A stretch of DNA of 64,000 bases, taken from NCBI RefSeq assembly GCF_039542385.1, contig NZ_BAABIA010000006.1, forward strand, positions 62,001 through 126,000. The letters run 5' to 3'. Positions within the stretch are counted from its first letter, which is position 1; every line of letters begins with the position of its first letter. The position numbers were made by a program, and so were the translations under genes. Source of the stretch: Prosthecobacter algae (GTDB lineage: Bacteria; Verrucomicrobiota; Verrucomicrobiia; Verrucomicrobiales; Verrucomicrobiaceae). The notes under the pieces were generated by a model that searched no databases, had not been told where the DNA came from, and was given only the letters and a program-made list of their open reading frames with translations. Shown here piece by piece: positions 7,764 through 40,667 of this stretch.

Positions 7764-10700
7764 TCAACGACGGCGGCGGAAGTGCAGTCCCAGAAGTCCG
7801 ATGAAGAGCAGCAGCAGGCGGCTGGGTTCTGGCACGACCACGATCAGGCCGTGGCTGTTAAACAGCCCCGTATCCCAGCTCAGACTGCCAGTGAGCGTTG
7901 GCAGGTTGAAAGTTGGCGTACCCGTGGCTGCAGCCGTGCCCAGGCTGGTCCAGTCCAGGATCTGGAAGACATGCCCGTAGTCCGGCACAAAGCCGTTCAG
8001 GAAGATGTTGGATACCTGAATCGTCGTCAGCAGGCTCGGGGCGCTCGGATCATTGATGTTGAGCTGGTCATGCTGGGTCGTTCCCGGTTCATAGTTCGTC
8101 CAGGAGGCCGGGACACTGAAGCCGGAAGGATTAGCCTGATATGCCAGCACATTGGCCAGATCGAGTGTCGTCGCCCCGCCAAGCTGGAACAGCAGGATGG
8201 ATTCCGAAGTGGAACTGAGGCTGCCAATGTTCAACTGGCCGAGAGTGCTGACACCGCTGCTGTTCACGGAGCCAGGGGCGATGATGCCACTGTTGGCCAC
8301 CAGGCCAGAGATGCGGCCCGTGCCAGCCAGGGTGCTGCCAATGCCGACAGTCACCGTGCCGGTACCAGTGCCGGAACCCGTGAGGTTGTTCACCACCAGC
8401 GTGCCTGCGCTGACCATGCTGCCGCCTACGTAAGTGTTGGCGTTGGTGAGGAACAAGGTGCCTGTGCCCGTTTTGGTCAGCACCGCGCAATCGGTTCCAG
8501 AGATGATGCCGGAGGCCGTGAGCTGGTTCGGAGAAACCACCTCCAGGCTGCCGCCCGAGCCTCCCAGGGAAATGCTGCGGTTCACACCCAGGTCCACCGT
8601 GGCCCCGGTGCTGCGCAGCACGCCGCCATTGTTGAGCGCGAGGGTGTTCGTCACCGAGCCATCGCCCAGATTCGTTGCACTGGCGATGCTGATGCGGCCC
8701 TGGTTGATCGTGGTCGCTCCGGCATACGTGTTGTCAGCGCGGAGATAAAGAGTGCGCGAGCCTTCCTTGATAATGCCCCCGTTGCGGACAACCGTCTCGA
8801 TCACGGCGTCGTTGCGGAAGTTTGGATCCGTTTGGCTTGTCTCCACCACGATACGACGATCCGCCCCCCCCAGATCAAGGGTGCCGGTGACACTGCGGGT
8901 GCCGGCACTCGCCGTGCCTGTCCCAGTGATCAGGAGCTGGAACTCCGTCGTGCCGCCATCAGTCACGCGGTTGTTGTTCAGGATGATGTCGCCCATCACC
9001 GTCAGCACGCCAGTCGCTCCAGTGGCCACAATGGTGCCCCCGGAGGAGGTGGTTAGGAGAATCAGCCCGCCGATGGTCTCGCTGAAGTTATTCAGGTCAA
9101 AGCGCTGGGAGGTCCCCGTTCCATGGCGGATTTCCACCTTGGCCGTGTCGGCGATCTGGTCGCTGGCCAACAGTCGGACGATTGGAGTGGCCCCGCTGAT
9201 GAGCAGGCCGCCGGTGCCGATGGCATTGCCGCCCGTAACATTCAGTTCTAGAGCGCCTGCGGTAACGGTGAACAGCCCGGTGTGCGTGCTGGCGGTGGTA
9301 CCTGTCAGAGTCAGCGTTCCGGTGCCGAGCTTGCGCAATTCCGCATTGCCTGTGAGCATGAGATTGGTGGCCGTGGCGTTGATGGCATTCAAGTTGATGG
9401 TGCCACCACCCGTCCCCACATTCCACATACGGCTGCCCAGATCCCCTGTGTAACCCGCGCCCAGATTGAGCTGGCCACCAGCAAAATTGATCGCTCCTGT
9501 GCCGAGAGCGGCGATGTTGGAAATCTCAAGGTTCCCCTGGTTCAGGTAAACGCTGGTGAAAGCGTTCAGCACGTTGGTGAGGCGGAGAGTGCCTGCACCC
9601 GATTTCACCAACGGCACAGCCGAAGTCAGCGCCGGATCCAGCGTCACTGTGCCAGTCCCGGTGGTGAAGATGGAGTAATCGCGGCCACCACCTGCGGTGA
9701 GGCCGGAGATGCCGCTGATGCTGTGGTTGCCATTGCCTGCAAACAACAAGGTGCCGCTGGTGACTTCCATCGAGGAGGATGTGCCACTGAGCGCAATGGC
9801 CGTGGCAGAATCAAACACCAGCGCATTGATGGCCGTCGGCGTCGCCACAAGGGTGGAGGAGGCCGTGTAGCGGATGTTGTTATTCAGCGTGCCCGTGATG
9901 GCCGCGGAGTCATTGATGTACTCCGTCGAGGCCAGCGGGCGGAGGCCCAGCGCGGCAGACTCATGAGTCACCAAAGTATTGCCAGCGCCGGAGGCATCCG
10001 AATGGCCGATGATCCAGGGGATGATGGAAATGTTGGACGATGTGATGAGGCCGCCGCCGCCCACTTCATAACCTTCCAGTGTCGCCGTGGCCCCCGTATC
10101 AAAGCGGATGAGGCCGCGCTGGGTGGCCGTGGTGGTGCCCAGCGCCGGTCCGCGAACCAAAAGTGTCGAACGCTGTGTGCCGCGTGTCAGGGTGTCCGCC
10201 ACCAAGTCGGCGATGGTGGAGGTCCCCGTGCCTGTCCCGTTGTTCCCCTGCGAGAGGATGAGGTTATGCCCGTAGCCTAAATTGATGGGGCCGACGTTTT
10301 CCGTGCGAGTAGCATTCTGGTTCTGGTTGTAGCTCCAAAGACCGTTGCGCGGAGACACGGTGACGGTTCCAGCCGTATTGTTCAGCGTGATCGGTGCAGA
10401 ATCACTGAGACGGTTGATGGTGCTTGTCTGATCCTGACGGAAGATGAGTTCAGCTCCGGCATTCACCGTGTAGGAAGTGGCCGAACTCAGGCGACCGGCC
10501 CCTCCCTGAAGATCGATGCGTCCCAGATCCGCCACCACAGCACCTGTGAAGTCGGCGCTCAGGCCGGTGATGGTCAGGTAGTCAATGTTGGTTTTCACCA
10601 GGGTGCCGCTGCCGGAGAAGGCACCGCCAAAGATGAAGTTTTCGTTGGCCGTGCCATCGCCATCGCTCTGATTCAGCGTGAGCTGGGAGCCTGCATTCAG

Positions 10701-13700
10701 CAGCACCGTGCCATTCGCATTTTCCCCGCCTTGCAGCAGGCCGATGGTTTCAGTCTGGCCTGCGGGAAGTTCCAGCACGGTTGCCCCGGAGCCCAGGGCA
10801 CCAATGATGTTCACGGGAGAGAGATCGCCGATGGCGTTGCCTCCGGTCAGCACCAGACGGCCTTCGTTCAGCGTCACCGCCGCCGTGTTGGAAAGCGCGC
10901 GGCCAGAGAGGATCAGGGTGCCTTCACCGCTCTTGGTCAAAGTACCGTCGCGGTCCGAGCTGATTTCAAAAGTGCCGCCCGTGTTGTTCTGGTGAACCAC
11001 CAGCGGACCGATGAGGCGACCACCGGTGATGGCGGTATTGTTCGCGCCTACATTGGAGGTCAGCAGAATGCCACCGCTGCTGATGGCCAGGGAGCGGAAA
11101 TTGTTAATCGCCAGCGTGCTCGCCGCATTGGCATTGAAGGTCAGTGAGGCAATGTTAGGCACACACTGGTCCACCACATTGGTTAAGACCGCTGTATTGA
11201 TCACATGCTGGCCTGCCGTCCAGGCATCCACATCATTTCCTGGAGTGCTGACTAGGGAGGTGATCTTACCACCACTGACCGTGGCAAAAGCCGAACTGTT
11301 CACCGTCGCCCAGCCGCCGATGATGCCATCCGTGAGCGTGGTGGTACCGATCTTCACCTCCGTGCCGGAGCCGATCTCAAAGTTCAGGGTGGAGTTGTTC
11401 GTGCGAGTGAGGGTGCCGATGATATCGAGCGTCACAGCCGCGCCATTGTTGACGAGGGCGATCTCCCCCGCCCCGCGAGCCACCGCCAAACTGGCGACTG
11501 CCTGCGAGGCTGGCACCGTGCCATGACCATTGAGCGACAGCCGAGGGTTGGCCTCCGCGACGGTGCCCCCCAGTGTAAGGATCCCAGTGCCGATCTTATT
11601 GTCGGTGCCGGACTGGGTGCCAAAGTCGAGCGCCAGCTCTCCTTCACGCACCAGCGTGTTGCCCGTGCCAAAGGCGTTGTTGCCAGAGAGCACCACCGTT
11701 CCCACACTGTCTTTGTTGATGCTGTTGGCCCCAGTCACCGTGCTCGCCAGATTCGCGCTGACGCTGCCCGCGTAACCATTCAGGACGGTCCCAATGTTCA
11801 CCGTGCCTGTCCCGATGACATTGCCGATGCGGTCTGCCGTATTGCTCGCACCGCCCACATCCAGCCTCGGTGTGGTGAAGGAGAAGCTATTCAAATTCAG
11901 CGTGGAGGTGCCGGCGGCGTTTTCATTCACCAGCACAAACTCCATCGCGCTGCCGAGGATGTTGTGGGCCAGGAGGTTGATGGTGCCGCCCGTTCTCACA
12001 TAGAGGCCGTTGCTGGTTGTGTCTGCAATGAGGGACCCATCAATGGTGCCGCTGATGTTCAGCACGCTCGTGGCTCCTGTCACAATGACATCGTTCTGCA
12101 CCGAGGTACCGTCCAGGTTGAGGGTGCCATTGTTGATCGCCAGGGTATCCCCAATGTTGATCGCGCCCGTCAGCGTCCACGTTCCCGTGCCCGCTTTGTT
12201 GAGGTCGCGCCCCGTTTCCAGGGTTGCCACTCCGTCGGAGGTGACGTCGCCAGAAAACACGTTGTTGCCGGTGCCATCGAGGGTCAGCGCATGGTTGGAG
12301 GCAATGAGGTAGTCGCCCGAGACCGTCAGGTCCGTCGTTGCCGAGGTGGAATCATTGCCGATGATCGTGCGGCTCGTTCCCGTGCCCACCAGGTTCACGC
12401 TCACCGTGGAGCCCAGCGGATTATTCACTGCGTCATAAGTGATGTTGCCGCCCAGAGTCAGGCTGCCGCCCGTGGCCGTATCCAGAAGATTGGCCTGGGA
12501 GGTGCTGCTGGCACCGCCGAGGGTGATGGCCCCGGTAAGGGTCATCGTGCGGCCATTGATTTCCATCACGGCTGCCTGGCCAGCATCGGCATTGATAAAC
12601 AATCCCGTGCTGCCCGTGCTGCTGCCACTCGCACCCAGTTGCACTGTGCCCTGGTTGATGGTCGTCGTGCCGACATAAGTGTTGGCACCGTCGAGGATCA
12701 GCGTGCCCGCCCCCTTCTTCACCAGGCTCACATTGTTTTCATTCGTGCCTGCACCGCCGATGCCAAAGCCCAGCGTCAGCGGTGTCGCCTGATTCAGAGT
12801 CAGGGTGGAAAGCGCCGCCGCCCCGCCCACGATGCCATGGCTGCCAAAGCTGCCCAGCACCAGACTGCCAAGCGTCACATTCGCCGCACCTTGTGCCGTG
12901 CCCAGTTGCAAAATAGCACCGCTAGTGGCCGACCCCAGGGTCAATGCGGAACCATTCGGCAGCGAATCCGTGCCGGTCAGCCCCAGCCGCCCTGCGCGGA
13001 TGCTAGTGCTGCCTGTGTAGGTGGAGGTACCACCCAAAATGACTGTCCCTGTCGCCGTCGGGCTGGCATTGAGATCCAGCGATCCCGTGCCGCTCACCCC
13101 GCCCAGCACGGCCAGTGTCCCCGCCGCATCTTCCACATTCCAGGCCTGCGTAGCCCCAATGCCCACGGGCGCACTCACGGTGACTGTCCCTGCATTGCCG
13201 CTGGCAAGCGTGAAACCGATGCCCGAGGCACCTGTGAGCGTCAGTTTGTCAGTGCCGCCGACGGTGACTCCGTTGGTTACTGAACCGGCTTCAAACGTCA
13301 CCTGCTTCACCGTCAGGTCAGCCCCCAGGCTGGTGGTGAAATTAGCCGAGCCATTGGCACTGAAGTGCACGTGCGAATTGCTGTCTGGCGGGACGGAGGC
13401 ATCCACACCACCCGCTTGGGAGGAATCCCAGTTGGTGTTGCCACCGATTCCGGAGCCACTCCACACCCCGGTACCAGTACCGCTCAGATCGCCCTTCCAC
13501 CAAACATCCGGCGGTGCCGCCTGCGCGGTCAGCGTCAGGATAAGGCGGTCGTTATTGCCCAGGTCTGGGCTCTCACGGGTGACGTTATAAATGAAGTTAC
13601 CGGGATTGAAGATTGTCCCGGCGACAAAGCTACCGGAGCCCAGGAAGCTTCCATCGGCAGCGCTGTTGATCAGTGTGTAAGAAGTCAACGTCGGTGTACC

Positions 13701-16700
13701 CACCACATAGATGTCCGCGCTCGTCGTCCCGTTCCGCGTCAGGGTCTGCCCCGCCGTGAGATTGATCTGGTCATTGGTCGCCCCATTGATGCCAAAACCC
13801 AGGATGGCTCCGGTCGTGTTGCCCAGCGTCAGCACATTGCCGGTGCCGGCAAAGGTCTGCGTGCTGTTGCCATGCTGGAAGAACAGCTTGGCACCATCGG
13901 CCACCGTGGCGCGCTGCACATTGCTGCCCAGCAGGCCCGCGCCGCTGACGATCAATTCACCTGCATTCACCGCCACTGTGCCGTTCAGAGAATTGCTGCC
14001 TGCGACCGTGAGGCTGCCTGCACCATTTTTGACAAAATTCAGGTTATTCTGGAAAGTGCCCGCACCGCCCAGACCACCATTGAAGGTCGTTGTCGTGGCC
14101 TGATTCACCGTGAAGGTGGACCGGGTGCCATTGCCGCCTAGGATCGCATTCGCCGTGCCGGTACCGGAGGAGGAAAGCTCCGCCACCGTCTGGTTCAGCG
14201 CCCCGGAAGGACCACCAATCTGCAACTGGCCGGAGAATGCCCCCTGCCCCAGGATCACCGGCACGTTGGCGGCAAAGCGGTTGTCCTGGAAAGTCTGCCC
14301 GCTGGTATTCGTGATGCCACCATCCAGCACCATCCGGCCCTGTTGCACCGCAACGGTCCCCGTCGCCGTGCTCACTCCGGCCGCACCGGAAAAAATCTGC
14401 GTGCCAGGTCCCTTTTTCACAAGAGCGAGAGACATCGCTGCACCATCGCGGAGGATACCGTTGAAGGTGAATTCATCTCCCGCTCCATCCGTGTTGATCG
14501 TCAGTGTGCGCACCAAGGTCGCGCTGAAGCTTTCGATGAAACCCGTCCCCTGCAGGCCGCCCACTTCCTGGCTACCGCCAAACAGGCGCAGGGCCCCGTT
14601 GCCATTGGCCGTCAACACCCCGCCGATGGGCATGTAGTTATCACCGCCGGAGATTTCAATGCGGCCCGAGTTGATGACCGTGTTGCCCGTGTAAAGCTGC
14701 GGCACCGTGTAGTAAACTTCGCCATCAGCGGTGATGGAGACAGCGTTGGGACCATTGTCCACAATCGGAGCATTGATCTCGATCCGGCGCGCGCCATGGA
14801 TGCGTCCCTCATATCCCGTAACGGCATTGTTGCCAAAGGTGATAGACCCACCAGCCCCCCCGGCAGAGATGGTGTTCGTCTGGGTGCCTGTGGAAAGGAT
14901 GATGCCGCCGCTGACGGTCAGCAGATTTCCTTGCAGGAAAAGGTCCGCGCCCGTGCCACCGGTATTGTCAATCACCAGACCGCCAATGATGGCAGGCCCG
15001 TCCAGGAGTGGATCGGAATTGTTCGCCGTGATGTCCAAATAAACATTCTGCCCGGTGATGCTCGCCGAGCTAAGGGCCGCATTCGCCGCAAAGGCCTGGA
15101 AGAAATAGTCCGTCGTCGTCGGGCTGAAATCCAGCAGGCGGAAGCCATTGCCTGCGGCATACGTCACAAGGCTGGAGCCCGTGCTGCTTGAGGAGACGCC
15201 GCCCGTCAGATACGGCACGATGCCAATCGCACTGCCCGTGCCTGCGGAGCTCAGCGTGATGCCGTTCGTCACGATGAAGTTCGCTTCCGCACCGCCCGGG
15301 TCGCCCGCATTGCCACCCGTCGTATTCGCAGCCGTTGCATCATCTGCCAGACCGTTGATGGCAAAGCCCAGGTTGTCCCCGCGCACCAACCCCGTAGCAA
15401 AGTTCGTGCGCAGCAGGCGCGAGGCCGTCAGCACCACATCGCCATGGGTGTTGTTCGCGTCAGTGTTGGAGCCAAAGTCCGCATCCAGCGTGATGGTGTT
15501 GAAGCCACCAGACATCGTGATGTCACCCACCACTTCAGCGGGGCGAGCGCTGTTAGATCCAGTAATGAGGAAGCTACCCCGGTTCAGAGTGATCGGCGCC
15601 GTGTCGCCGATGCGGTTGCTGATTGCGCGGCTGTCCGCACCATTTTGGTTGTCCAGCGTCAGCGTCCCCCCGGTCTCCACCAGGAAGGACTTGGCTCCAG
15701 TCAGCGTCCCGGCCAGCAGGCTGGTGGCACTGTTCGTGTCTCCCAAAATGCGGAAGGTGCCGCCACGGATAATCACCTCCCCCAAAAAGGCCGTGTTCAG
15801 CGAGCGGTGTCCGTAAGTGTTTGTGCCCGACTTGATCAGCTTCGAATCTGCCGTGCCCGTCAACTGGCCATAATAATCCACGCTCGCACCACCGGCCATT
15901 TCCAGCGTGTTGCCATTCAGGTTCACCGTCGCCAGGTTGCTGCCACTCAGGTGCTGCACCCGGTTGTAGTTGCCTGAGCCACTGAAGTTCAGCACACCAT
16001 TCACATTCAGCCGGCTGGCAGGCAGGATGAAGGAACCACCAACCGTCACCGTACCGCCATTGATGGAGGTGGGCCCCGTGTAGGTCTGCGGCTGGTTGAT
16101 GGTCAGCGTGCCGGGTCCCGTCTTGGCCAAGCCCGTATCACCCGTGATGGTGGCATTCAACGTTAGATCATTCACCGTGTAGATGAAGCCTTCCGTCGCC
16201 GCGCCAAAGTTGATGGTTCCATTGGCGATCGTTGCCGGTGCCGTGCCGCTGCTCAGGATGCTGGCCCCGGCCAGCGACAGCACATTTCCACCCAGGTCCA
16301 GCGTCACTCCCGCACCCGCCAGATTCGCCGTGAGATCATTCGTATTAGCCGCCAGCGTCTGGTTGGCTTCCAGCTTCACGTTCTGCCCCAGCCCGGCAAA
16401 GGAGGACACCATTTCCGAAGCCTGCAGCAGGCGGAGCCCGTTGACATCGTAGGTCACAAATCCTGTCCCCTGTCCCGTCAGGGAATGATCCCCCAATATT
16501 CCCGGCACAATGCCCGCCGTCGGCGTCCCCAGCGTCCCCGTGATGGTCGGTGCCGTCACATCAAAAAGCAGCCGGGCCACCCCAGCTCCCGCAGGTCCGG
16601 TCCCCAGATTGCTGCCACGAAGCAAAAGCGTGGAACCTGCCGAACGAATGAGACTGTCCGCAGTCAAGGTAAGCCCGGCACCGCCATCTTCCAGCGTGAT

Positions 16701-17897
16701 GACGGCATTCGAATCTACCCCGTTCATTTCCGCGATGTTCAGCGGCCCAGTCACCTCCGTCGTCGCCGCCAGTGCATTGCCGATCATGTGCAAATGTGCC
16801 GTGGAGCGGAACTGCAGCTCTTCGTCATCATGCAGACGGTTCTGCGCCACATGGTTAGCCACGGAGCTGTCCAGGCGAAGCGTGGAATAGGGCACCGCCA
16901 CATCTTTCACCGTGGAAGTATCGGATCGACCGAGCAAAATCATGCCCACGATCTGGTTCGCCGCACCATTCGCATTCGCCAGCGACAGCGTGCCGGAATA
17001 CACCAGCAACTGGTCTTGAAAATTCACATCTCCGGCGATCACCTGCGTGCCCAGGTTTGCCTGCCCCTGCTTCGCCAAATCTCCCGTAGTTGGGCCTGTC
17101 ACAGACCCAGAAAAGGTCAGCGTCTCACCCGTGAGCGTGCGGAAATCCAGGTTACCTGCATTGATCACCGACCCTGTTCCCGTGAGGCCACGAAAGGCAT
17201 CGCCAAAGCCGCCTTTGTCCCAGGTCGTGCCGCTGGTCATGTTGATGATCGTCGTCGTATCACCAAAAGCATTGTCCTGAGTGTTCAGCAGTGTCGCCCC
17301 GTTTTGCAGCGTGATGATGCCGATCCCATACGAGTTGTCCGTCGTGTTGCCCAGGCTCAGGGTCCCTGCACCGTCCACGATAAGGTCGTCCGTTCCATCC
17401 GCAGTGAAGGAACCAATCGTCAATGTCCGCCCCGTCCCCAGCAGCCAGGTTTGGTCAGCCCCCAGGGTGACCGCTGAAGTGATGCTCACATCGGCCCCAG
17501 CACCCGTCATGTCGATAGCCACACCCGTCGCCGTCTGCCCCGTCCCCGTCGGAGTAAGCGTCAGCGTGTTTCCACTGATCGCCAATGCCGAAGTGATTCC
17601 CGAACCAAAAGTTAGACTGCGCGCCGTACGGCTGGCTCCCAGCGTCTGTGTGGTGGTGTTCAACGCCCCGGTAGCAAAAAAGAACAAGTCATCTGTGGCC
17701 GTCGTGGTGTTTGCAGGCGCCGCACCCGTTCCGTTCGCTGCCAAGTTCCAATTCGTCGTGACATTCCAGGCGCCCGAAGTGCTGCCATCCCAATACAGTG
17801 TGACGGCCTGCAAAGGCTGACTGATCTGCCAACTGCTCAGCAAAGCTACCAGGGCAAGACTCACGTGTCGGCGATGACGACGAAGGGTATGGATCAT
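7764..17897 (-). CDS. Giant autotransporter-associated beta-strand-repeat protein with PEP-CTERM tail
   Basis: The frame is open from 17918, but the ATG at 17897 begins a better signal peptide (MIHTLRRHRRHVSLALVALL, cleavage near QPLQA), giving about 3,377 residues. The body is Gly/Thr/Asn/Ala rich and built from many copies of the beta-strand repeat of autotransporter passenger domains (PF12951-like), for example GAGTLILDGANTYVGTTTI and TGTGTLFLTNANTYVGG. Such passengers fold as long beta-helices. No C-terminal translocator barrel is present. The end is instead VPEPS, a hydrophobic stretch and RRRR, which is the PEP-CTERM sorting signal recognised by exosortase. A surface-anchored or secreted adhesin is the best guess. 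No exosortase gene is in the window. Long plus-strand frames inside it are antisense shadows. Confidence 0.93.
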   Translation of the reverse strand: MIHTLRRHRRHVSLALVALLSSWQISQPLQAVTLYWDGSTSGAWNVTTNWNLAANGTGAAPANTTTATDDLFFFATGALNTTTQTLGASRTARSLTFGSGITSALAISGNTLTLTPTGTGQTATGVAIDMTGAGADVSITSAVTLGADQTWLLGTGRTLTIGSFTADGTDDLIVDGAGTLSLGNTTDNSYGIGIITLQNGATLLNTQDNAFGDTTTIINMTSGTTWDKGGFGDAFRGLTGTGSVINAGNLDFRTLTGETLTFSGSVTGPTTGDLAKQGQANLGTQVIAGDVNFQDQLLVYSGTLSLANANGAANQIVGMILLGRSDTSTVKDVAVPYSTLRLDSSVANHVAQNRLHDDEELQFRSTAHLHMIGNALAATTEVTGPLNIAEMNGVDSNAVITLEDGGAGLTLTADSLIRSAGSTLLLRGSNLGTGPAGAGVARLLFDVTAPTITGTLGTPTAGIVPGILGDHSLTGQGTGFVTYDVNGLRLLQASEMVSSFAGLGQNVKLEANQTLAANTNDLTANLAGAGVTLDLGGNVLSLAGASILSSGTAPATIANGTINFGAATEGFIYTVNDLTLNATITGDTGLAKTGPGTLTINQPQTYTGPTSINGGTVTVGGSFILPASRLNVNGVLNFSGSGNYNRVQHLSGSNLATVNLNGNTLEMAGGASVDYYGQLTGTADSKLIKSGTNTYGHRSLNTAFLGEVIIRGGTFRILGDTNSATSLLAGTLTGAKSFLVETGGTLTLDNQNGADSRAISNRIGDTAPITLNRGSFLITGSNSARPAEVVGDITMSGGFNTITLDADFGSNTDANNTHGDVVLTASRLLRTNFATGLVRGDNLGFAINGLADDATAANTTGGNAGDPGGAEANFIVTNGITLSSAGTGSAIGIVPYLTGGVSSSSTGSSLVTYAAGNGFRLLDFSPTTTDYFFQAFAANAALSSASITGQNVYLDITANNSDPLLDGPAIIGGLVIDNTGGTGADLFLQGNLLTVSGGIILSTGTQTNTISAGGAGGSITFGNNAVTGYEGRIHGARRIEINAPIVDNGPNAVSITADGEVYYTVPQLYTGNTVINSGRIEISGGDNYMPIGGVLTANGNGALRLFGGSQEVGGLQGTGFIESFSATLVRTLTINTDGAGDEFTFNGILRDGAAMSLALVKKGPGTQIFSGAAGVSTATGTVAVQQGRMVLDGGITNTSGQTFQDNRFAANVPVILGQGAFSGQLQIGGPSGALNQTVAELSSSGTGTANAILGGNGTRSTFTVNQATTTTFNGGLGGAGTFQNNLNFVKNGAGSLTVAGSNSLNGTVAVNAGELIVSGAGLLGSNVQRATVADGAKLFFQHGNSTQTFAGTGNVLTLGNTTGAILGFGINGATNDQINLTAGQTLTRNGTTSADIYVVGTPTLTSYTLINSAADGSFLGSGSFVAGTIFNPGNFIYNVTRESPDLGNNDRLILTLTAQAAPPDVWWKGDLSGTGTGVWSGSGIGGNTNWDSSQAGGVDASVPPDSNSHVHFSANGSANFTTSLGADLTVKQVTFEAGSVTNGVTVGGTDKLTLTGASGIGFTLASGNAGTVTVSAPVGIGATQAWNVEDAAGTLAVLGGVSGTGSLDLNASPTATGTVILGGTSTYTGSTSIRAGRLGLTGTDSLPNGSALTLGSATSGAILQLGTAQGAANVTLGSLVLGSFGSHGIVGGAAALSTLTLNQATPLTLGFGIGGAGTNENNVSLVKKGAGTLILDGANTYVGTTTINQGTVQLGASGSSTGSTGLFINADAGQAAVMEINGRTMTLTGAITLGGASSTSQANLLDTATGGSLTLGGNITYDAVNNPLGSTVSVNLVGTGTSRTIIGNDSTSATTDLTVSGDYLIASNHALTLDGTGNNVFSGDVTSDGVATLETGRDLNKAGTGTWTLTGAINIGDTLAINNGTLNLDGTSVQNDVIVTGATSVLNISGTIDGSLIADTTSNGLYVRTGGTINLLAHNILGSAMEFVLVNENAAGTSTLNLNSFSFTTPRLDVGGASNTADRIGNVIGTGTVNIGTVLNGYAGSVSANLASTVTGANSINKDSVGTVVLSGNNAFGTGNTLVREGELALDFGTQSGTDNKIGTGILTLGGTVAEANPRLSLNGHGTVPASQAVASLAVARGAGEIALVNNGAAVTLDIIGTLTRTNNSTLNFEIGSGTEVKIGTTTLTDGIIGGWATVNSSAFATVSGGKITSLVSTPGNDVDAWTAGQHVINTAVLTNVVDQCVPNIASLTFNANAASTLAINNFRSLAISSGGILLTSNVGANNTAITGGRLIGPLVVHQNNTGGTFEISSDRDGTLTKSGEGTLILSGRALSNTAAVTLNEGRLVLTGGNAIGDLSPVNIIGALGSGATVLELPAGQTETIGLLQGGENANGTVLLNAGSQLTLNQSDGDGTANENFIFGGAFSGSGTLVKTNIDYLTITGLSADFTGAVVADLGRIDLQGGAGRLSSATSYTVNAGAELIFRQDQTSTINRLSDSAPITLNNTAGTVTVSPRNGLWSYNQNQNATRTENVGPINLGYGHNLILSQGNNGTGTGTSTIADLVADTLTRGTQRSTLLVRGPALGTTTATQRGLIRFDTGATATLEGYEVGGGGLITSSNISIIPWIIGHSDASGAGNTLVTHESAALGLRPLASTEYINDSAAITGTLNNNIRYTASSTLVATPTAINALVFDSATAIALSGTSSSMEVTSGTLLFAGNGNHSISGISGLTAGGGRDYSIFTTGTGTVTLDPALTSAVPLVKSGAGTLRLTNVLNAFTSVYLNQGNLEISNIAALGTGAINFAGGQLNLGAGYTGDLGSRMWNVGTGGGTINLNAINATATNLMLTGNAELRKLGTGTLTLTGTTASTHTGLFTVTAGALELNVTGGNAIGTGGLLISGATPIVRLLASDQIADTAKVEIRHGTGTSQRFDLNNFSETIGGLILLTTSSGGTIVATGATGVLTVMGDIILNNNRVTDGGTTEFQLLITGTGTASAGTRSVTGTLDLGGADRRIVVETSQTDPNFRNDAVIETVVRNGGIIKEGSRTLYLRADNTYAGATTINQGRISIASATNLGDGSVTNTLALNNGGVLRSTGATVDLGVNRSISLGGSGGSLEVVSPNQLTASGIISGTDCAVLTKTGTGTLFLTNANTYVGGSMVSAGTLVVNNLTGSGTGTGTVTVGIGSTLAGTGRISGLVANSGIIAPGSVNSSGVSTLGQLNIGSLSSTSESILLFQLGGATTLDLANVLAYQANPSGFSVPASWTNYEPGTTQHDQLNINDPSAPSLLTTIQVSNIFLNGFVPDYGHVFQILDWTSLGTAAATGTPTFNLPTLTGSLSWDTGLFNSHGLIVVVPEPSRLLLLFIGLLGLHFRRRR

Positions 17898-17918
17898 AGA
17901 AGTTGGGGTTGGTACCAA

Positions 17919-34454: not shown

Positions 34455-36692
34455 ATGCCCGAATCACCAGCCCCCCAGCCGATGAAGCGCGTGCGCCTGA
34501 CTCCCTGGCGCGGGCCGTTTCATTTTGTGCTGTTGCTGGTGACGAGCAGTCTGACGCTGCTGCTGCCGCTGGCTTATGCGGTGCTGGTGATGGCGGGTGG
34601 CCTTTACCTGGGATGGCGGGGCTTTGAGTGGGTGACGGCCCTGGCGCTGGCGGAAAGCTGGCGATGGCAGGATGTGCTGCCGCTGGCCTGGCTTTTGGCG
34701 GGGGCGGTGACATGGATTTTCATGCTGAGGCCGCTGAGGGGCAGGCCCCGATCTGTGACGGTGGCGCTGCAAATCACGCCCTCCAACCAGCCGCGTGTGT
34801 TTGAACTGGTGGATGAGATCTGCTGGCACCTGAAGCTGGATGCGCCGCAGGAAATCTGGCTGGACACGTCCATCGGCATCCGCTCATCGGTGCGCGGCGG
34901 GGTGCGGGGAGTGGTCGGTGGGGAGCTGATTTTGCACATCGGGCTGCCGATCGTCTCGGTGATGAGTGCGAGGGAGTTTGCGGCGATGCTGGTGAGGGAG
35001 CTGGCGATGAACGCGGGGGGGATGGGAACGACTTTTTCGCATCTGGTGAGAGAATTGAACGCGTGGTTTTATCGTGCGCTGCATGAGCGGGACCCATGGG
35101 AGCCTGCACTGCGGGCACGGCGGGAGAAAGAAGGCCCCCTGCAACGAGGAGTGAGGCTGACGGCGTGGCTGTGGATGACGGTGGCGAAGCTGCCCTTTGG
35201 TCTGTTCGTGATGGCGGCGCGGATGATCAGTGCGGTGGCGCTGCTGAGTCTGGGAGCGGGCGCGGACCGGGCTGGAGCGAAGGTGCTGGGCAAGGGAGCA
35301 TGGAAGCGGCTGCAGGCGAAGATGGAACTGCTGCAGGGAGCCTGGGAGGCGACGCGCAAGGAGATCCAGCGGGGGCTGGGCCAGCAAAGGCTGCCCGACA
35401 ATCTGGCCCTGCTGCTGGCGCGACATGTGGCGGGCGCGGCGCGGACAAAGGAGTCTGCCGAGCAGGATGCGCCGCCGGTGCCCGAGGACGCGAAGAGACT
35501 TTTTCAAGAGCTGCCCAATGATGTGCCAGCGGCCTCGCTGGTGCGGGGGTTTGTGGATCTGGCGCGGCAGGTGACGTGCTTTTACTACCAGCATGAGCTG
35601 GGGATAGGCCTGCATGAGAACCGGCTGGTGGCGGATGAGGAGGTGATCCACCAAAACCGGCGGGAAGATGAATCGCTGGTGATCATCCGGCGCTACTTCA
35701 GCGGGCTGGCCCACCCGGAACGGGCGATGTGCGGGCTGGGGGCAACGCACCCGGTTTCGCCAGGGCTGGAGCAGCTCAAGGAAGAGATCCTACGGGTGCG
35801 GCGGGAGACCCGTGAATGGGGCTGCCGGCTGAAGCTGGCGCTGCAAGAATGGAACCTGGCGTGGCAGCGGCGGCGCGACCTGGAGGCGGCGGCGGTGCTG
35901 AGCCAGGCGGGATTCACGGTCTCGCGCATCCAGTTTGGAACGGATGACACGACGCCGCAGTCCCTGCGAAGCGAGGCGGCGCGGCAGCGGATGCTGATGG
36001 AGCACATGGAATCTGCGCTGGTGGCCTATGAAATGAAGATGGAGAGCCGCTTTGCCGCGGCACTGGGGCTGCTGTGGTGGAGCCCAAAGGAGATGATGGA
36101 CGACCGGCTGGCAGAGCGGCGGAAAGACCTTGCGGCGTGGGTTTCCATCTATGAAGCGATGGCAGGGGCGCTGCCGTGTTTTCGCGAACTACTGACGACG
36201 TTTTTTGCCTTTCAGACGCTGGGGGCGCGGCATGCGAACCTGGAAGACCGAGGCAGCTTTTTCACCGCGCTGCAATCGGTGGTGCCGAAGATGACAAACC
36301 TGGTAAAGCAGATCCTTTCGACGATGGACGGGGCAATGTACCCCTTTGCCCCAAACAAAAGGGCGGTGAGACTGAACGAGCACCTGCTGCAAGGCAAGCT
36401 GCCGGAGCCGATCAACATCTCGATGAATCCAGGGTCGGCGGTGGACATCAAGGCGCTGTCGGCCAAGATGGCGGCGGATGCGGGTGAGGTGATCGCGCCG
36501 TTTGTGGATCGTTTTTTAAACTTGTACCATCAGTCCTATGCGTGGCTGGCGGAATCTGCGGAGCTGACGGAAGCGCAATTTCTGGGGCCAAACAGTCTGG
36601 GCGCCGAGGTGGAAATGCTGATGCCGGAAGAATTTGCACGGATGCAGGAGGCGAAGCCACAGGGCAGCAAGTCACGACTGCCTGCAAAATAA
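34455..36692 (+). CDS. M48-like integral membrane protein lacking the zinc-binding motif (probable pseudoprotease)
   Basis: This 745-residue protein has hydrophobic segments at about 23-52, 74-92 and 236-270. Residues 100-220 follow a subgroup of large M48 membrane peptidases (VFELVDEICWHLKLDAP, ELILHIGLPIVSVMSAREFAAMLV, FSHLVRELNAWFYRALHERD). Where that subgroup has HEFGH or HELGH, this protein has RELAM at 181-185, so both zinc histidines are gone while E182 stays. The gene is long, intact and free of frameshifts, which argues against decay. An HELGI at 380-384 lies outside the expected site and lacks the second histidine. A non-catalytic scaffold or regulatory role is inferred. The phosphatase gene follows after 37 bases. 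Confidence 0.75.
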   Translation: MPESPAPQPMKRVRLTPWRGPFHFVLLLVTSSLTLLLPLAYAVLVMAGGLYLGWRGFEWVTALALAESWRWQDVLPLAWLLAGAVTWIFMLRPLRGRPRSVTVALQITPSNQPRVFELVDEICWHLKLDAPQEIWLDTSIGIRSSVRGGVRGVVGGELILHIGLPIVSVMSAREFAAMLVRELAMNAGGMGTTFSHLVRELNAWFYRALHERDPWEPALRARREKEGPLQRGVRLTAWLWMTVAKLPFGLFVMAARMISAVALLSLGAGADRAGAKVLGKGAWKRLQAKMELLQGAWEATRKEIQRGLGQQRLPDNLALLLARHVAGAARTKESAEQDAPPVPEDAKRLFQELPNDVPAASLVRGFVDLARQVTCFYYQHELGIGLHENRLVADEEVIHQNRREDESLVIIRRYFSGLAHPERAMCGLGATHPVSPGLEQLKEEILRVRRETREWGCRLKLALQEWNLAWQRRRDLEAAAVLSQAGFTVSRIQFGTDDTTPQSLRSEAARQRMLMEHMESALVAYEMKMESRFAAALGLLWWSPKEMMDDRLAERRKDLAAWVSIYEAMAGALPCFRELLTTFFAFQTLGARHANLEDRGSFFTALQSVVPKMTNLVKQILSTMDGAMYPFAPNKRAVRLNEHLLQGKLPEPINISMNPGSAVDIKALSAKMAADAGEVIAPFVDRFLNLYHQSYAWLAESAELTEAQFLGPNSLGAEVEMLMPEEFARMQEAKPQGSKSRLPAK

Positions 36693-36729: not shown

Positions 36730-37458
36730 ATGCGAATCCTGGCTATCGGAGACATCCACGGCTGTTCCATCGCTCTGCGGGCACTGCTGGATGCGGTGAA
36801 GCCTGGGAGCGATGATGTCTTGATCACCCTGGGTGATTACGTGGACCGAGGACCGGACTCGAAGGGGGTGATCGATATCCTGCTAGGACTGGAAGAAACG
36901 ACGCAGTTGAAGCCGCTGATGGGCAACCATGAGATCCTATTTATGGATGCGATGGCGGAGCAACTGGATGTGGAGGCCTGGCTGAGGGTGGGCGGGAGGG
37001 AAACGCTGCTTTCCTACGCGCCAGACCACAGCACCCTGTCGTGGAACAACATCCCGCAGGCGCATGTGGAATTTTTAAAAGAGCGCTGCCTGCGCCACTG
37101 GGAGACGGAGTATCACCTCTTTGTGCATGCGAATGCGAATGCGGTCTTTCCCCTGGCGGATCAGAGCGATGACTGGCTTTTCTGGACGCGGTTTGACGAT
37201 AGCTACCCGCATGTTTCCGGCAAGACGATGGTGTGCGGCCACACGGCACAGAAGAGCGGGATGCCTGCCCTGCGGACGAAAGCGATGTGCCTGGACACGT
37301 GGGCCTATGGCGAAGGCTGGCTGACGTGCCTGGACATTCAAAGCGGTGAATTCACCCAGGCGAACCAGGCGGGGGAGGTGAAAAGATTCACCCTGGCGGA
37401 TCTGGAAGGTCACGGCGGTGAAAAAACCACGCAACTGCCAGTAAGCCCGCCCAACTGA
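36730..37458 (+). CDS. PP2A-like serine/threonine protein phosphatase (metallophosphoesterase)
   Basis: This 242-residue cytoplasmic protein carries the full phosphoprotein-phosphatase metal site: GDIHG at 7-11, GDYVDRG at 35-41, GNHE at 65-68, the histidine of FVHANAN and CGHT before the C-terminal third. This order and length match bacterial PrpA/PrpB and ApaH-like phosphatases that use two metals, often Mn. Substrates could be phosphoproteins or dinucleoside polyphosphates. The start is supported by an AGGTGG-like ribosome site a few bases upstream. It follows the inactive M48-like gene by 37 bases on the same strand and may be cotranscribed with it. Confidence 0.9.
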   Translation: MRILAIGDIHGCSIALRALLDAVKPGSDDVLITLGDYVDRGPDSKGVIDILLGLEETTQLKPLMGNHEILFMDAMAEQLDVEAWLRVGGRETLLSYAPDHSTLSWNNIPQAHVEFLKERCLRHWETEYHLFVHANANAVFPLADQSDDWLFWTRFDDSYPHVSGKTMVCGHTAQKSGMPALRTKAMCLDTWAYGEGWLTCLDIQSGEFTQANQAGEVKRFTLADLEGHGGEKTTQLPVSPPN

Positions 37459-37545
37459 CATTTAGACCTTGCGAGGCTGTTGCCTGCGTACAAGTGTCAG
37501 CCGTCGGGCCATCGCCCTTTTACAACCCAGGAATTTTCTATCATC

Positions 37546-38556
37546 GTGTCATCAGCTCGCTCGATTCTCGTCACCGGAGGCACCGGTTCGTTCGGTCAAA
37601 AATGCATCGCCACCCTGCTTACGGATCCGGAGGTGAAACGCATCGTGATTTACTCCCGCGATGAGTTGAAGCAGTTCGAAATGGGGCAGAAATTCACGGA
37701 CCCAAGGCTGCGTTATTTCATCGGCGACGTGCGTGACAAGGACCGCCTGCAGCGTGCGCTGGAAGGGGTGGACACCGTGATCCACGCAGCGGCGCTGAAG
37801 CAGGTGCCTGCGGCGGAGTACAACCCGATGGAGTTCATCAAAACGAACGTCCTGGGGGCGGAAAACCTCATCGAAGCCTGCCTGGACAACGATGTGCAGA
37901 ACGTGGTGGCCCTTTCCACCGACAAGGCGGCGGCGCCGATCAATCTTTATGGCGCGACGAAGCTGTGCTCGGACAAGCTTTTCATCGCGGCAAACAACGT
38001 GCGCGGGGACCGGAAGATCAAATTCAGCGTGGTGCGTTACGGCAATGTGATGGGATCACGCGGATCGGTGATTCCCTTTTTCCTGGATAAGCGCAAGACT
38101 GGGGTGCTGCCGATCACGGACCCTGAGATGACGCGCTTTAACATCACGCTCGAAGAGGGTGTGGAGCTGGTGATGCACGCGCTGAAGCATGCGATCGGCG
38201 GGGAGATCTTTGTGCCGAAGATCCCGAGCTACCGGATCACGGATGTGGCGGAAGCCATCGGGCCGGAATGTGAGAAGCCGGTGGTGGGCATCCGCCCGGG
38301 CGAGAAGATCCACGAAGAGATGGTGACCTCCACGGATGCGCTGCAGACGATTTCGACGGACAAGCACTACATCATCGTGCCGAACAAGCACCGGCAGCCG
38401 CTGGAGGTGACGATCAAGGCTTTCTGTGATCACCACGGCGCGACGCCGGTATCCTCCGGGCTGGCCTACAACTCCGGCACCAACACGGAATGGATGACCG
38501 TGGAAGAAATCCGGAAACTGATCCAGTCCCACGTGGACCCGACCTTCACTGTCTAA
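37546..38556 (+). CDS. pseB: UDP-N-acetylglucosamine 4,6-dehydratase, PseB-like
   Basis: The frame is open from 37480, but a GTG at 37546 starts the family-like sequence SSARSILVTGGTGSFG, giving 336 residues. The nucleotide motif GGTGSFG is at 11-17. The catalytic set is T125-D126-K127 (STDKA) and YxxxK at Y135/K139, the inverting-dehydratase pattern of PseB/FlaA1. This enzyme makes the 4-keto-6-deoxy sugar that starts pseudaminic acid and related nonulosonate or diamino-sugar pathways. A methyltransferase gene and a pseC-like gene follow at 24 bases and with overlap, so the three form an operon for surface glycan synthesis. Later pathway enzymes are not in the window. Confidence 0.88.
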   Translation: MSSARSILVTGGTGSFGQKCIATLLTDPEVKRIVIYSRDELKQFEMGQKFTDPRLRYFIGDVRDKDRLQRALEGVDTVIHAAALKQVPAAEYNPMEFIKTNVLGAENLIEACLDNDVQNVVALSTDKAAAPINLYGATKLCSDKLFIAANNVRGDRKIKFSVVRYGNVMGSRGSVIPFFLDKRKTGVLPITDPEMTRFNITLEEGVELVMHALKHAIGGEIFVPKIPSYRITDVAEAIGPECEKPVVGIRPGEKIHEEMVTSTDALQTISTDKHYIIVPNKHRQPLEVTIKAFCDHHGATPVSSGLAYNSGTNTEWMTVEEIRKLIQSHVDPTFTV

Positions 38557-38580
38557 TTCCCTTTTATCCGACTTGCTGAC

Positions 38581-39501
38581 ATGAGTTCCGCCATTACTCC
38601 CTGGGATCTAAAAAGAGCTTATCAGGAGGGGCAAAATCTGATGAAGATTCTTCGTCAGGAGGCAGGTGCCACCGGCAATGACGAGAAGATGATCGAGCTG
38701 TCGTACGACCTGCAATCGGGATCGTACGTGGGGGCGCTGGCGGACCCGGTGCTGCTGGCACACAAGCGTGAATATTGCCGGCATGTGGCGGCGCTGCTGG
38801 AAAGCCTGGGGCCAGTGAGCAGCCTGCTGGATGCGGGGATGGGCGAGGGCAACATGCTGTGGCTGACGCTTTCCCAAATGGTGAACCCGCCGCTGCAGGT
38901 GCATGGCTTTGACCTGTGCTGGTCGCGCATGGCGGTGGCCCGCGAGTGGCTGGAGAAGCAGGAGCCGTGCTTTGAGATCCAGATCAGCACGGGCAGCCTG
39001 ACGGAGATCCCGTACATGGACAACAGCGTGGATGTGGTGTGGACGAACCATTCCATCGAGCCGAACCACGGACGCGAGGCGGCGATCCTTTCCGAGCTGC
39101 ACCGGGTGTGCCGCCGCTATGTGGTGATGCTGGAGCCTGCCTATGAACTGGGCAGCGATGAGGCGAGGAAGCGCATGGATGAGCATGGCTACTGTCGCAA
39201 CCTGGCAGGAACGGCCAAGGAGCTGGGCTTTCGAGTGCACCGACATGAGATCTTTGCGGGCAACCGCAATCCGCGGAACCCGACGGCGGTGCTGATTTTG
39301 GCGAAGGATGAAAACGCTACCCCGGTGACGCCGCGCCGCTGCTGCCCGGTGTACAAGACCGAGCTGACCCCGATGCGGGACTGCTGGTACAGCAAGGAAT
39401 CCATGCGGGCCTATCCAATTCTCAACGGCATCCCCTGCCTGAGAAGCAGCCAGAGCATCGTGGCGAGCAAATTGGCCGAGACTTTTCCCACTGATTCATG
39501 A
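38581..39501 (+). CDS. SAM-dependent methyltransferase with C-terminal Trm112-like cysteine module
   Basis: This 306-residue protein has a class I methyltransferase core with the SAM loop DAGMGEG at 84-90 and the acidic strand end GFDLCWSRM. WTNHSIEPNHGREAAILSEL occupies the usual position of motifs IV-V. The last 60 residues have CC, C and C spaced as RRCCPVYKTELTPMRDCWYS...YPILNGIPCL, resembling the Trm112/zinc-ribbon module found in small methyltransferase partners. It sits between pseB and pseC and its stop overlaps the pseC start by four bases (ATGA). That position points to methylation of a sugar or of the glycan product. The exact acceptor is unknown. Confidence 0.8.
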   Translation: MSSAITPWDLKRAYQEGQNLMKILRQEAGATGNDEKMIELSYDLQSGSYVGALADPVLLAHKREYCRHVAALLESLGPVSSLLDAGMGEGNMLWLTLSQMVNPPLQVHGFDLCWSRMAVAREWLEKQEPCFEIQISTGSLTEIPYMDNSVDVVWTNHSIEPNHGREAAILSELHRVCRRYVVMLEPAYELGSDEARKRMDEHGYCRNLAGTAKELGFRVHRHEIFAGNRNPRNPTAVLILAKDENATPVTPRRCCPVYKTELTPMRDCWYSKESMRAYPILNGIPCLRSSQSIVASKLAETFPTDS

Positions 39502-40667
39502 GTTCCTTTTTACCCTATGGCCGCCAGTCTTTGGACGCAGAAGACCTGCAGGCGGTGATGGATGTGCTGAAGTCCGACTTTCTGACCCAGGGCCCTGCCA
39601 TCGGCCGTTTTGAAAAGGCAGTGACGGACTGGTGCGGGGCAAAGCATGGCATTGCGATGTCCAACGGCACGGCGACGCTGCATCTGGCGGCGAAGGCGAT
39701 GGGGCTGAAACATGGCGACTGGCTGTGGACGAGCCCGATCACGTTTGTGGCCTCGGCCAATGCGGGGCGGTACTGCGGGGCGAATGTGGACTTTGTGGAT
39801 GTGGATCCGGGAACGGTGAACCTGTGCCCGGAGCGGCTGGAAGCGAAACTGCAGCAGGCTGAAAAAGACGGGAAGCTGCCGAAGATCGTGGTGCCGGTGC
39901 ACTTCGCCGGGCAGCCCTGTGCGATGGACCGCATCCATGCGCTGGGGCAGAAGTATGGCTTTAAGATCCTGGAAGATGGTGCCCATGCGCTGGGCGGCAG
40001 CTATGAGGATGAACGGATCGGCAACTGCCGGTGGTCGGATGCGGTATCGCACAGCTTTCACCCGGTGAAGATCGTGACGAGCGGCGAGGGCGGGATGATC
40101 ACGACCAACGACGACGAACTGGCCTGGAAGATCGGCATGCTGCGCACGCACGGCATCACGCGCGATGCCGACCGGATGGTGGGCGAATCCGAAGGGCCGT
40201 GGTATTATCAGCAACTGGAGCTGGGCTACAACTTCCGCATGACGGACATCCAGGCCGCGCTGGGGGCGAGCCAGATGACGAAGCTGGATGCCTTTGCCGC
40301 GAGGCGGCGGGAGATTGCGGCCTTGTACGATCAGGCGTTAGGCGGGTTGCCGCTGCGACCGCTGGCAAGGGACCCGAAGGGCATCAGCGGCTGGCACCTT
40401 TACATGATCCGGCTGAACCTGGCCGAGATCTCGCAGACACGCAGGCAGGTCTTTGAAAGCCTGCGCGCGCAAGGCATCGGGGTGAATGTGCATTACATCC
40501 CGGTGCATTTGCAGCCTGACTATGTGAGGCTGGGCTTTCATGCGGGGATGTTCCCAGAGGCGGAGCAGTATTACCAGGAAGCGATCACGCTGCCGATGTT
40601 CCCTGCGATGAAGGACGAGGACATCCTGCGGGTGCGTGATGCGCTGGCGGTAGCGACGGGTGTTTAG
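39498..40667 (+). CDS. pseC: UDP-4-keto-sugar aminotransferase, PseC-like
   Basis: This 389-residue protein is a DegT/DnrJ/EryC1-type PLP aminotransferase. The PLP lysine is K191 in SFHPVKIVTSGEGG, and the ring-contacting aspartate is D160 in EDGAHALGG. Its opening (FLPYGRQSLDAEDLQAVMDVL) and TQGPAIGRFEKA match PseC, which converts the PseB product to a 4-amino-4,6-dideoxy sugar. Related aminotransferases act on other 4-keto sugars, so the precise product is inferred from the pseB partner. It overlaps the upstream methyltransferase by four bases and converges with the SMUG1-type gene ten bases away. No pseG, pseH, pseI or pseF follows. Confidence 0.88.
   Translation: MSSFLPYGRQSLDAEDLQAVMDVLKSDFLTQGPAIGRFEKAVTDWCGAKHGIAMSNGTATLHLAAKAMGLKHGDWLWTSPITFVASANAGRYCGANVDFVDVDPGTVNLCPERLEAKLQQAEKDGKLPKIVVPVHFAGQPCAMDRIHALGQKYGFKILEDGAHALGGSYEDERIGNCRWSDAVSHSFHPVKIVTSGEGGMITTNDDELAWKIGMLRTHGITRDADRMVGESEGPWYYQQLELGYNFRMTDIQAALGASQMTKLDAFAARRREIAALYDQALGGLPLRPLARDPKGISGWHLYMIRLNLAEISQTRRQVFESLRAQGIGVNVHYIPVHLQPDYVRLGFHAGMFPEAEQYYQEAITLPMFPAMKDEDILRVRDALAVATGV

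Follow-up and report, generated by a model that had tools for sequence, protein, structure and literature searches.

A putative pseudopeptidase derived from large membrane M48 peptidases in Prosthecobacter algae and other Verrucomicrobiaceae

Organization of the locus

The window analysed here, i.e., the whole stretch of 64,000 nucleotides of Prosthecobacter algae DNA, belongs to a genome of 6.12 Mb and harbors an ORF encoding a protein of 745 amino acids (Table 1). In agreement with the preliminary description, the frame is full length, starting with ATG and containing neither stop codons nor frameshifts. The two N-terminal hydrophobic segments represent a probable membrane anchor, and helices are found at residues 21-64 and 71-94 in an AlphaFold model of low confidence; the third hydrophobic stretch is possibly a hairpin. 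The charge pattern, evaluated by eye, and the analogy with HtpX suggest that the protein may reside in the inner membrane and expose its soluble portions to the cytoplasm.

Table 1. Features of the putative pseudopeptidase gene and its downstream neighbour (positions in the window).
Feature	Position	Strand	Evidence
Pseudopeptidase gene, homologue of large membrane M48 peptidases	34455..36692	+	Intact ORF, orthologs, hhalign
Two hydrophobic segments, residues 25-43 and 73-91	34527..34727	+	Hydropathy scan
RELAM replacing HExxH, residues 181-185	34995..35009	+	Alignments; R/Q-E-L-A-M/L in 13/13 members of the R/QELAM clade
Third hydrophobic stretch, residues 237-266	35163..35252	+	Hydropathy scan
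Gly267 at the third-zinc-ligand position (Glu in active relatives)	35253..35255	+	Alignment
Linker without HPx4R motif, where active relatives carry the active-site plug	35442..35534	+	Clade alignment
C-terminal helical domain, residues 355-735	35517..36659	+	Highest conservation in the family
Clade signature round HPxRxxC (RYFSGLAHPERAMCGLG, residues 413-429)	35691..35741	+	44/44 clade rows
Clade signature WxxxWxxxR (EWNLAWQRRRDLEAA, residues 465-479)	35847..35891	+	44/44 clade rows
Neighbouring PPP-type phosphatase gene	36730..37458	+	PF00149

The active M48 peptidase that had been noticed elsewhere in the window (6214) was recognized as BepA-like: it matches PF01435 above the cut-off, with the motifs HEIGH and HPAPENR, and the NCBIfam BepA model below the cut-off; with its 287 residues, it lies outside the large M48 subgroup discussed below. 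On the reverse strand, one uninterrupted frame of 3384 codons spans positions 7764-17918.

Relationship with M48 peptidases

The Pfam scan of the window protein returned no PF01435 match at E 1, the gathering score not being reached, and no ATPase domain; NCBIfam gave no match whatever, and no Pfam family was found above the cut-off in the clade members scanned. For this reason, the M48 descent needed to be demonstrated by profile comparison. When the alignment of 24 orthologs was compared with that of 11 active large M48 proteins using hhalign, a probability of 100 and an E-value of 7.7e-50 over 651 columns were obtained, which supports the proposed membership of the large M48 membrane group. 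The comparison excludes an unrelated membrane protein resembling M48 by chance and, as far as sequence profiles can tell, points unambiguously to a homologue of large membrane M48 peptidases. The active peptidases of this kind in Verrucomicrobiota (PF01435, e.g., L043) share with the window protein full-length homology, the N-terminal hydrophobic segments and the domain order; unlike the clade to which the window protein belongs, they possess HPx4R, the HExxH motif and a third-ligand Glu of the MEFDAD type, whereas the HPxRxxC and WxxxWxxxR signature is missing from them. Further PF01435 frames of 620-710 residues (e.g., in genomes G005, G025, G060 and G061) are missed by the ortholog profile and would represent a different large M48 subgroup.

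Structural comparisons were performed as well. The PDB sequence search with the active group retrieved HtpX (3cqb, E 0.0047), and the one with a mixed alignment gave six unrelated matches (E 0.011-0.79), regarded as due to chance. Two AlphaFold models, each built on a 10-row alignment, were of poor confidence (mean pLDDT 55.7 and 59.0), and Foldseek, run with the second model (mean pLDDT 59.0), yielded no match at E 0.001.

Loss of the catalytic set

The replacement of HExxH by RELAM, with the loss of both zinc-binding histidines, was confirmed by the profile alignment, in which R181, E182 and M185 align with the first His, the Glu and the second His of HEFGH in the active paralogs. The loss extends beyond the histidines: Gly267 occupies the position of the third zinc ligand, a Glu on a downstream helix in active M48 peptidases, and the HPx4R plug, which is reported in excerpts of PMC7950410 as conserved throughout PF01435, is missing too. 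This suggests that the window protein would be unable to hydrolyse peptides.

The same holds, to a different extent, for the whole clade. Among the 46 clade rows that include the motif region (some of them near-duplicates from sister genomes), the combination of the two histidines, the glutamate and a third-ligand Glu/Asp never occurs, whereas it is complete in 12/12 active rows outside the clade. HExxH is missing from 37 of the 46 rows, with the first His retained in 13, the Glu in 41 and the second His in 17. The third-ligand column contains Glu in six rows, none of which has both histidines, and Asp in four, i.e., three R-E-L-G orthologs and L106, compared with Glu in 12/12 active rows. As for the HPx4R plug, counting the rows that cover it, it was found in 0/46 clade rows vs 13/13 active rows.

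Within the genus, where one row per genome was considered (n = 35), R/QELAM or RELAL occurs in 13 genomes, RELGH or RELGY in three, HELSH in nine, and QELSH, QELSC, QELSY, GELSP or YELSH in the remaining ten. E182 is retained in all of them (35/35) and is lost in 5/46 clade rows. The HELSH proteins hardly appear to be active enzymes that have survived in the clade; this possibility was rejected, both the third ligand and HPx4R being missing. The persistence of E182 in 35/35 and of HELSH in 9/35 could nonetheless mean that some clade members still bind metal or retain some chemistry.

In the phylogenetic trees, constructed after removing the motif columns and containing several long branches, the split between the clade and the active proteins receives 100/100 support (careful tree, thinned to 42 rows) and an SH-aLRT of 99 (quick tree of 58 rows). 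The minimum number of changes is three for the first His, six for the second His, two for the Glu, three for the third-ligand Glu and five when either Glu or Asp is allowed at that position. If it is assumed that the histidines were never regained, the loss of the plug and of the third ligand would have preceded that of the histidines, which would have taken place several times.

Distribution of the pseudopeptidase gene

A search with the ortholog profile (E 1e-10) gave matches in 37 of the 48 genomes of the genus, 35 of which remain after the removal of two remnants: only a fragment, embedded in an 84-residue frame, is present in G068 (L122:4335-4586), and only broken pieces are present in G006 (L073). 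These remnants illustrate how genuine decay of the gene appears in the genus. Among the 35 carriers, four (G012, G024, G026 and G032) have a gene that is truncated or spread over more than one contig, and in G013 it is interrupted by one stop codon; in G033 (L067:5163-7366), a frameshift splits it at the linker joining the M48-like part to the C-terminal one, with a TGATG stop-start overlap, which might be either a natural split of the gene or a fault in the assembly. The 11 genomes lacking a match tend to be smaller (median 4.3 Mb vs about 6.5 Mb for the 35 carriers, tallied by hand), and several of them are incomplete assemblies. Together with the two remnants, they indicate that the gene is dispensable, even though some of the assemblies are incomplete. 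A second, diverged clade member with the motif NQMAR, 28% identical to the window protein, accompanies the ortholog in G025 (L040:2635-4821).

Among 288 sampled genomes of the order, the clade is also represented in five further genera of the same family (g17, g20, g21, g22 and g24). The orthologs distributed across the genus and these genera exclude a strain-specific loss of the histidines. Close orthologs occur in records named Prosthecobacter, Brevifollis and Verrucomicrobiaceae, including that of Brevifollis gellanilyticus NBRC 108608 (L034), whose motif is QELAM. In another family (f3), the matches are weaker; L114, L115 and L120 are active forms, a reading that does not extend to the matches of G129, G158 and one of those of G223. 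Lastly, 387 sampled genomes of the phylum provided nine matches outside the family, with HExxH in 8/9 and HPx4R in 9/9. The ninth, a large M48 homologue (G494, L138:1310-3685), has HELCR in place of HExxH and retains HPx4R, suggesting an independent inactivation, perhaps at an earlier stage.

Selective constraint and the C-terminal domain

The preliminary description had interpreted the gene as a maintained pseudoprotease rather than a decaying gene, as opposed to a situation where all the close relatives have HExxH or dN/dS is near 1. Neither of these two situations was found, and the interpretation agrees with the existence of 12 other members of the R/QELAM clade equally devoid of both histidines (R/QELAM or RELAL) and with computable dN/dS values well below 1; yet, HELSH is present in 9/35 orthologs.

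The dN/dS values were calculated on 11 pairs picked by hand out of the 276 possible ones, dS being saturated for at least one region in five of them, including pairs with the window sequence (the window-L002 pair is saturated except for the N-terminal part). They range from 0.03 to 0.22 for residues 100-345 (9/11 pairs computable) and from 0.02 to 0.18 for residues 355-735 (7/11 pairs computable). Overall, the computable values fall between 0.02 and 0.32, with the exception of two obtained on short regions, 0.645 (N-terminal region, L018-L020) and 0.411 (33 codons, L009-L013). Moreover, E182, L183 and A184 are conserved in 13/13 members of the R/QELAM clade and M185 in 12/13, with synonymous codon variation. 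These data indicate that the gene is under purifying selection. Column 267, i.e., the old third ligand, drifts, 93-94% of the M48-like columns being at least as conserved.

The strongest constraint concerns the C-terminal domain, where the mean pairwise identity of 24 sequences is 0.705 (residues 355-735) vs 0.559 for residues 100-345, and which holds 58 of the 68 columns conserved across the genus and the outgroup rows. The HPxRxxC and WxxxWxxxR patterns, defined after inspection of the clade alignment, occur in every clade row holding the C-terminal part, spanning six genera, vs 0/12 full-length active rows (two further active rows are truncated) and 0/9 phylum-level relatives; taken one by one, some of the residues (e.g., H420 and R423) are common to about half of the active rows.

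Neighbouring genes

The PP2A-like phosphatase gene described 37 bases downstream is indeed present, on the same strand, and its product is calcineurin-like (PF00149, E 4.7e-15). The idea that the two genes form a signalling or quality-control unit was not supported by the comparison of genomes: the phosphatase is present in 46 of the 48 genomes of the genus, including some without the pseudoprotease, and adjoins it at six loci belonging to one subclade (the window, G018, G019, G034, G056 and G064; in some other genomes, a contig ends near the gene, so that adjacency is not always judgeable). A nearly ubiquitous phosphatase with six cases of adjacency does not support a dedicated unit; the arrangement looks like local synteny, and the phosphatase is probably not part of the pseudoprotease system. 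After the phosphatase, the window (37480-40667) contains genes for a PF02719 dehydratase, a methyltransferase and a DegT aminotransferase, which we take to resemble the start of a nonulosonic acid pathway.

No partner linked throughout the clade was found in the flanks compared, those of the outgroup having been searched with the window genes and with two proteins of the HELSH-type loci. A more restricted association was observed in the HELSH/QELSH-type clade (19 genomes), where 13 loci have the gene of a tandem kinase-like protein of about 760 residues (e.g., L054:8020-10290 and L060:7894-10182) downstream of the pseudoprotease gene and in the same orientation, one gene intervening at L064 and L069. 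On the basis of the coordinates, it is also located downstream in G032. It is not adjacent in G013, in G026, in the three R-E-L-G genomes or at any R/QELAM locus compared; other loci are cut short by contig ends. The protein itself matches in 47 of the 48 genomes of the genus (in 45 with E below 1e-100), and the genome of P. algae encodes it at a different site (L131:2340-4538). In Pfam, it gives no kinase match over the cut-off, and two distant paralogs match Pkinase just below it (E 2.7e-7 and 7.6e-7); by eye, it appears to possess a membrane segment and no catalytic motifs. It might be imagined that two dead enzymes, the pseudoprotease and this protein devoid of kinase motifs, build a signalling or assembly platform in which the C-terminal domain with HPxRxxC/WxxxWxxxR would offer the docking surface, even though we regard such an arrangement as quite unlikely.

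Possible function and alternative explanations

The product of the gene is probably a neofunctionalised pseudopeptidase acting as a membrane-anchored binding platform or scaffold. According to this model, an ancestor in Verrucomicrobiaceae would have possessed a large M48 zinc peptidase anchored in the membrane. One lineage would then have lost the third zinc ligand together with the HPx4R plug, and subsequently, in several branches, the two histidines, the overall architecture and the hydrophobic segments being retained. The C-terminal domain would have gained new, strongly conserved motifs, and, together with the old substrate groove, it would bind clients or partners and leave them uncut.

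Pseudo-subunits often regulate active partners, and the protein might similarly control an active M48 peptidase, either within a complex or as a competitor for substrates. The pseudo form is present in all nine genomes of the genus where the ortholog profile also detected an active large paralog, and at least one PF01435 match exists in each of the 48 genomes, so that other M48 targets are available; nevertheless, 26 of the 35 carriers, including the window genome, lack an active large paralog according to the ortholog-profile search (E 1e-10), which argues for independence from the active paralog of that subgroup, and the three PF01435 matches of the window genome lie in frames of 289-483 residues. 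On the whole, such a regulatory role seems unlikely. A different enzymatic activity, residing in the C-terminal block (HPxRxxC, WxxxWxxxRDLE) or in Glu182 as a new active site, is in our opinion rather unlikely: the near-invariant polar and aromatic residues of that block in six genera, in a pattern missing from the active paralogs, and the presence of E182 in all the genus members would fit it, but such residues equally suit protein-protein contacts, E182 is missing from the five clade rows mentioned above, and neither a Pfam family over the cut-off (members scanned) nor an NCBIfam match (window protein) was obtained.

The persistence of metallopeptidase activity by means of substitute ligands appears very improbable. 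Even though HELSH is maintained in nine orthologs and the third-ligand column contains Asp in the three R-E-L-G orthologs and L106 and Glu in six rows, no row has the whole set, the plug is missing from all the rows covering it, and the window protein has lost both histidines as well as the third ligand. Still less credible is a decaying gene that has yet to acquire stop codons. The 11 genomes without a match, the remnants of G006 and G068, the frameshift of G033 and the stop codon of G013 would be in keeping with it; on the other hand, most carriers have long open frames, the computable dN/dS values are well below 1, RELAM is kept through synonymous changes, and the C-terminal domain has a mean identity of 70.5% among 24 orthologs. 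Decay is largely refuted by the dN/dS values and the codon variation, to the extent that these reflect selection. The neofunctionalised pseudopeptidase, acting as a non-cutting membrane-anchored platform, is therefore the reading that we consider most likely.

Comparison with known pseudoproteases

Some known proteins can be compared with this putative platform. BepA is periplasmic and has a C-terminal TPR domain; iRhoms are eukaryotic members of the rhomboid family, with a fold different from that of M48. In the excerpts of PMC7950410, BepA, an M48 protein of E. coli, displays chaperone activities beside proteolysis and, like the window protein, combines an M48 domain with a helical C-terminal domain, but, unlike it, possesses H136, H140, E201 and H246. 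iRhoms are inactive members of a membrane protease family, which bind transmembrane clients without cutting them (PMC11266112, in part). FtsHi1-5 of plant chloroplasts are membrane-bound M41 pseudoproteases whose HExxH has decayed to, e.g., REAAV or NEAAM, and null mutants of FtsHi1, 2, 4 and 5 are embryo-lethal, as reported in excerpts of PMC11266112 and PMC8197885. FtsHi proteins belong to M41 and have an intact AAA+ domain, whereas the window protein derives from M48 and no ATPase domain was found in it; by analogy, they may be the closest functional precedents, and, like FtsHi and iRhoms, the window protein might hold clients or partners as a binding platform that does not cut.

The pseudo-metallopeptidases tabulated in the review PMC11266112 (table 1) come from other families, none of them being M48, a term found nowhere in its text. 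Among the bacterial pseudoproteases already in print are the pseudo-orthocaspases, cited in the excerpts of PMC8197885. In the titles and abstract openings of published works on pseudoproteases, M48, Verrucomicrobia and Prosthecobacter, subscription papers excluded, the family is undescribed.

One clade displays a series of inactivation states (HELSH, QELSH, RELGH, RELAM, HELAF and NQMAR), and some of the same genomes hold active paralogs. Given this series, the active paralogs and the availability of an ortholog in a named strain, the order in which the parts of a zinc protease are lost, and the residual use of what is left, can be tested.
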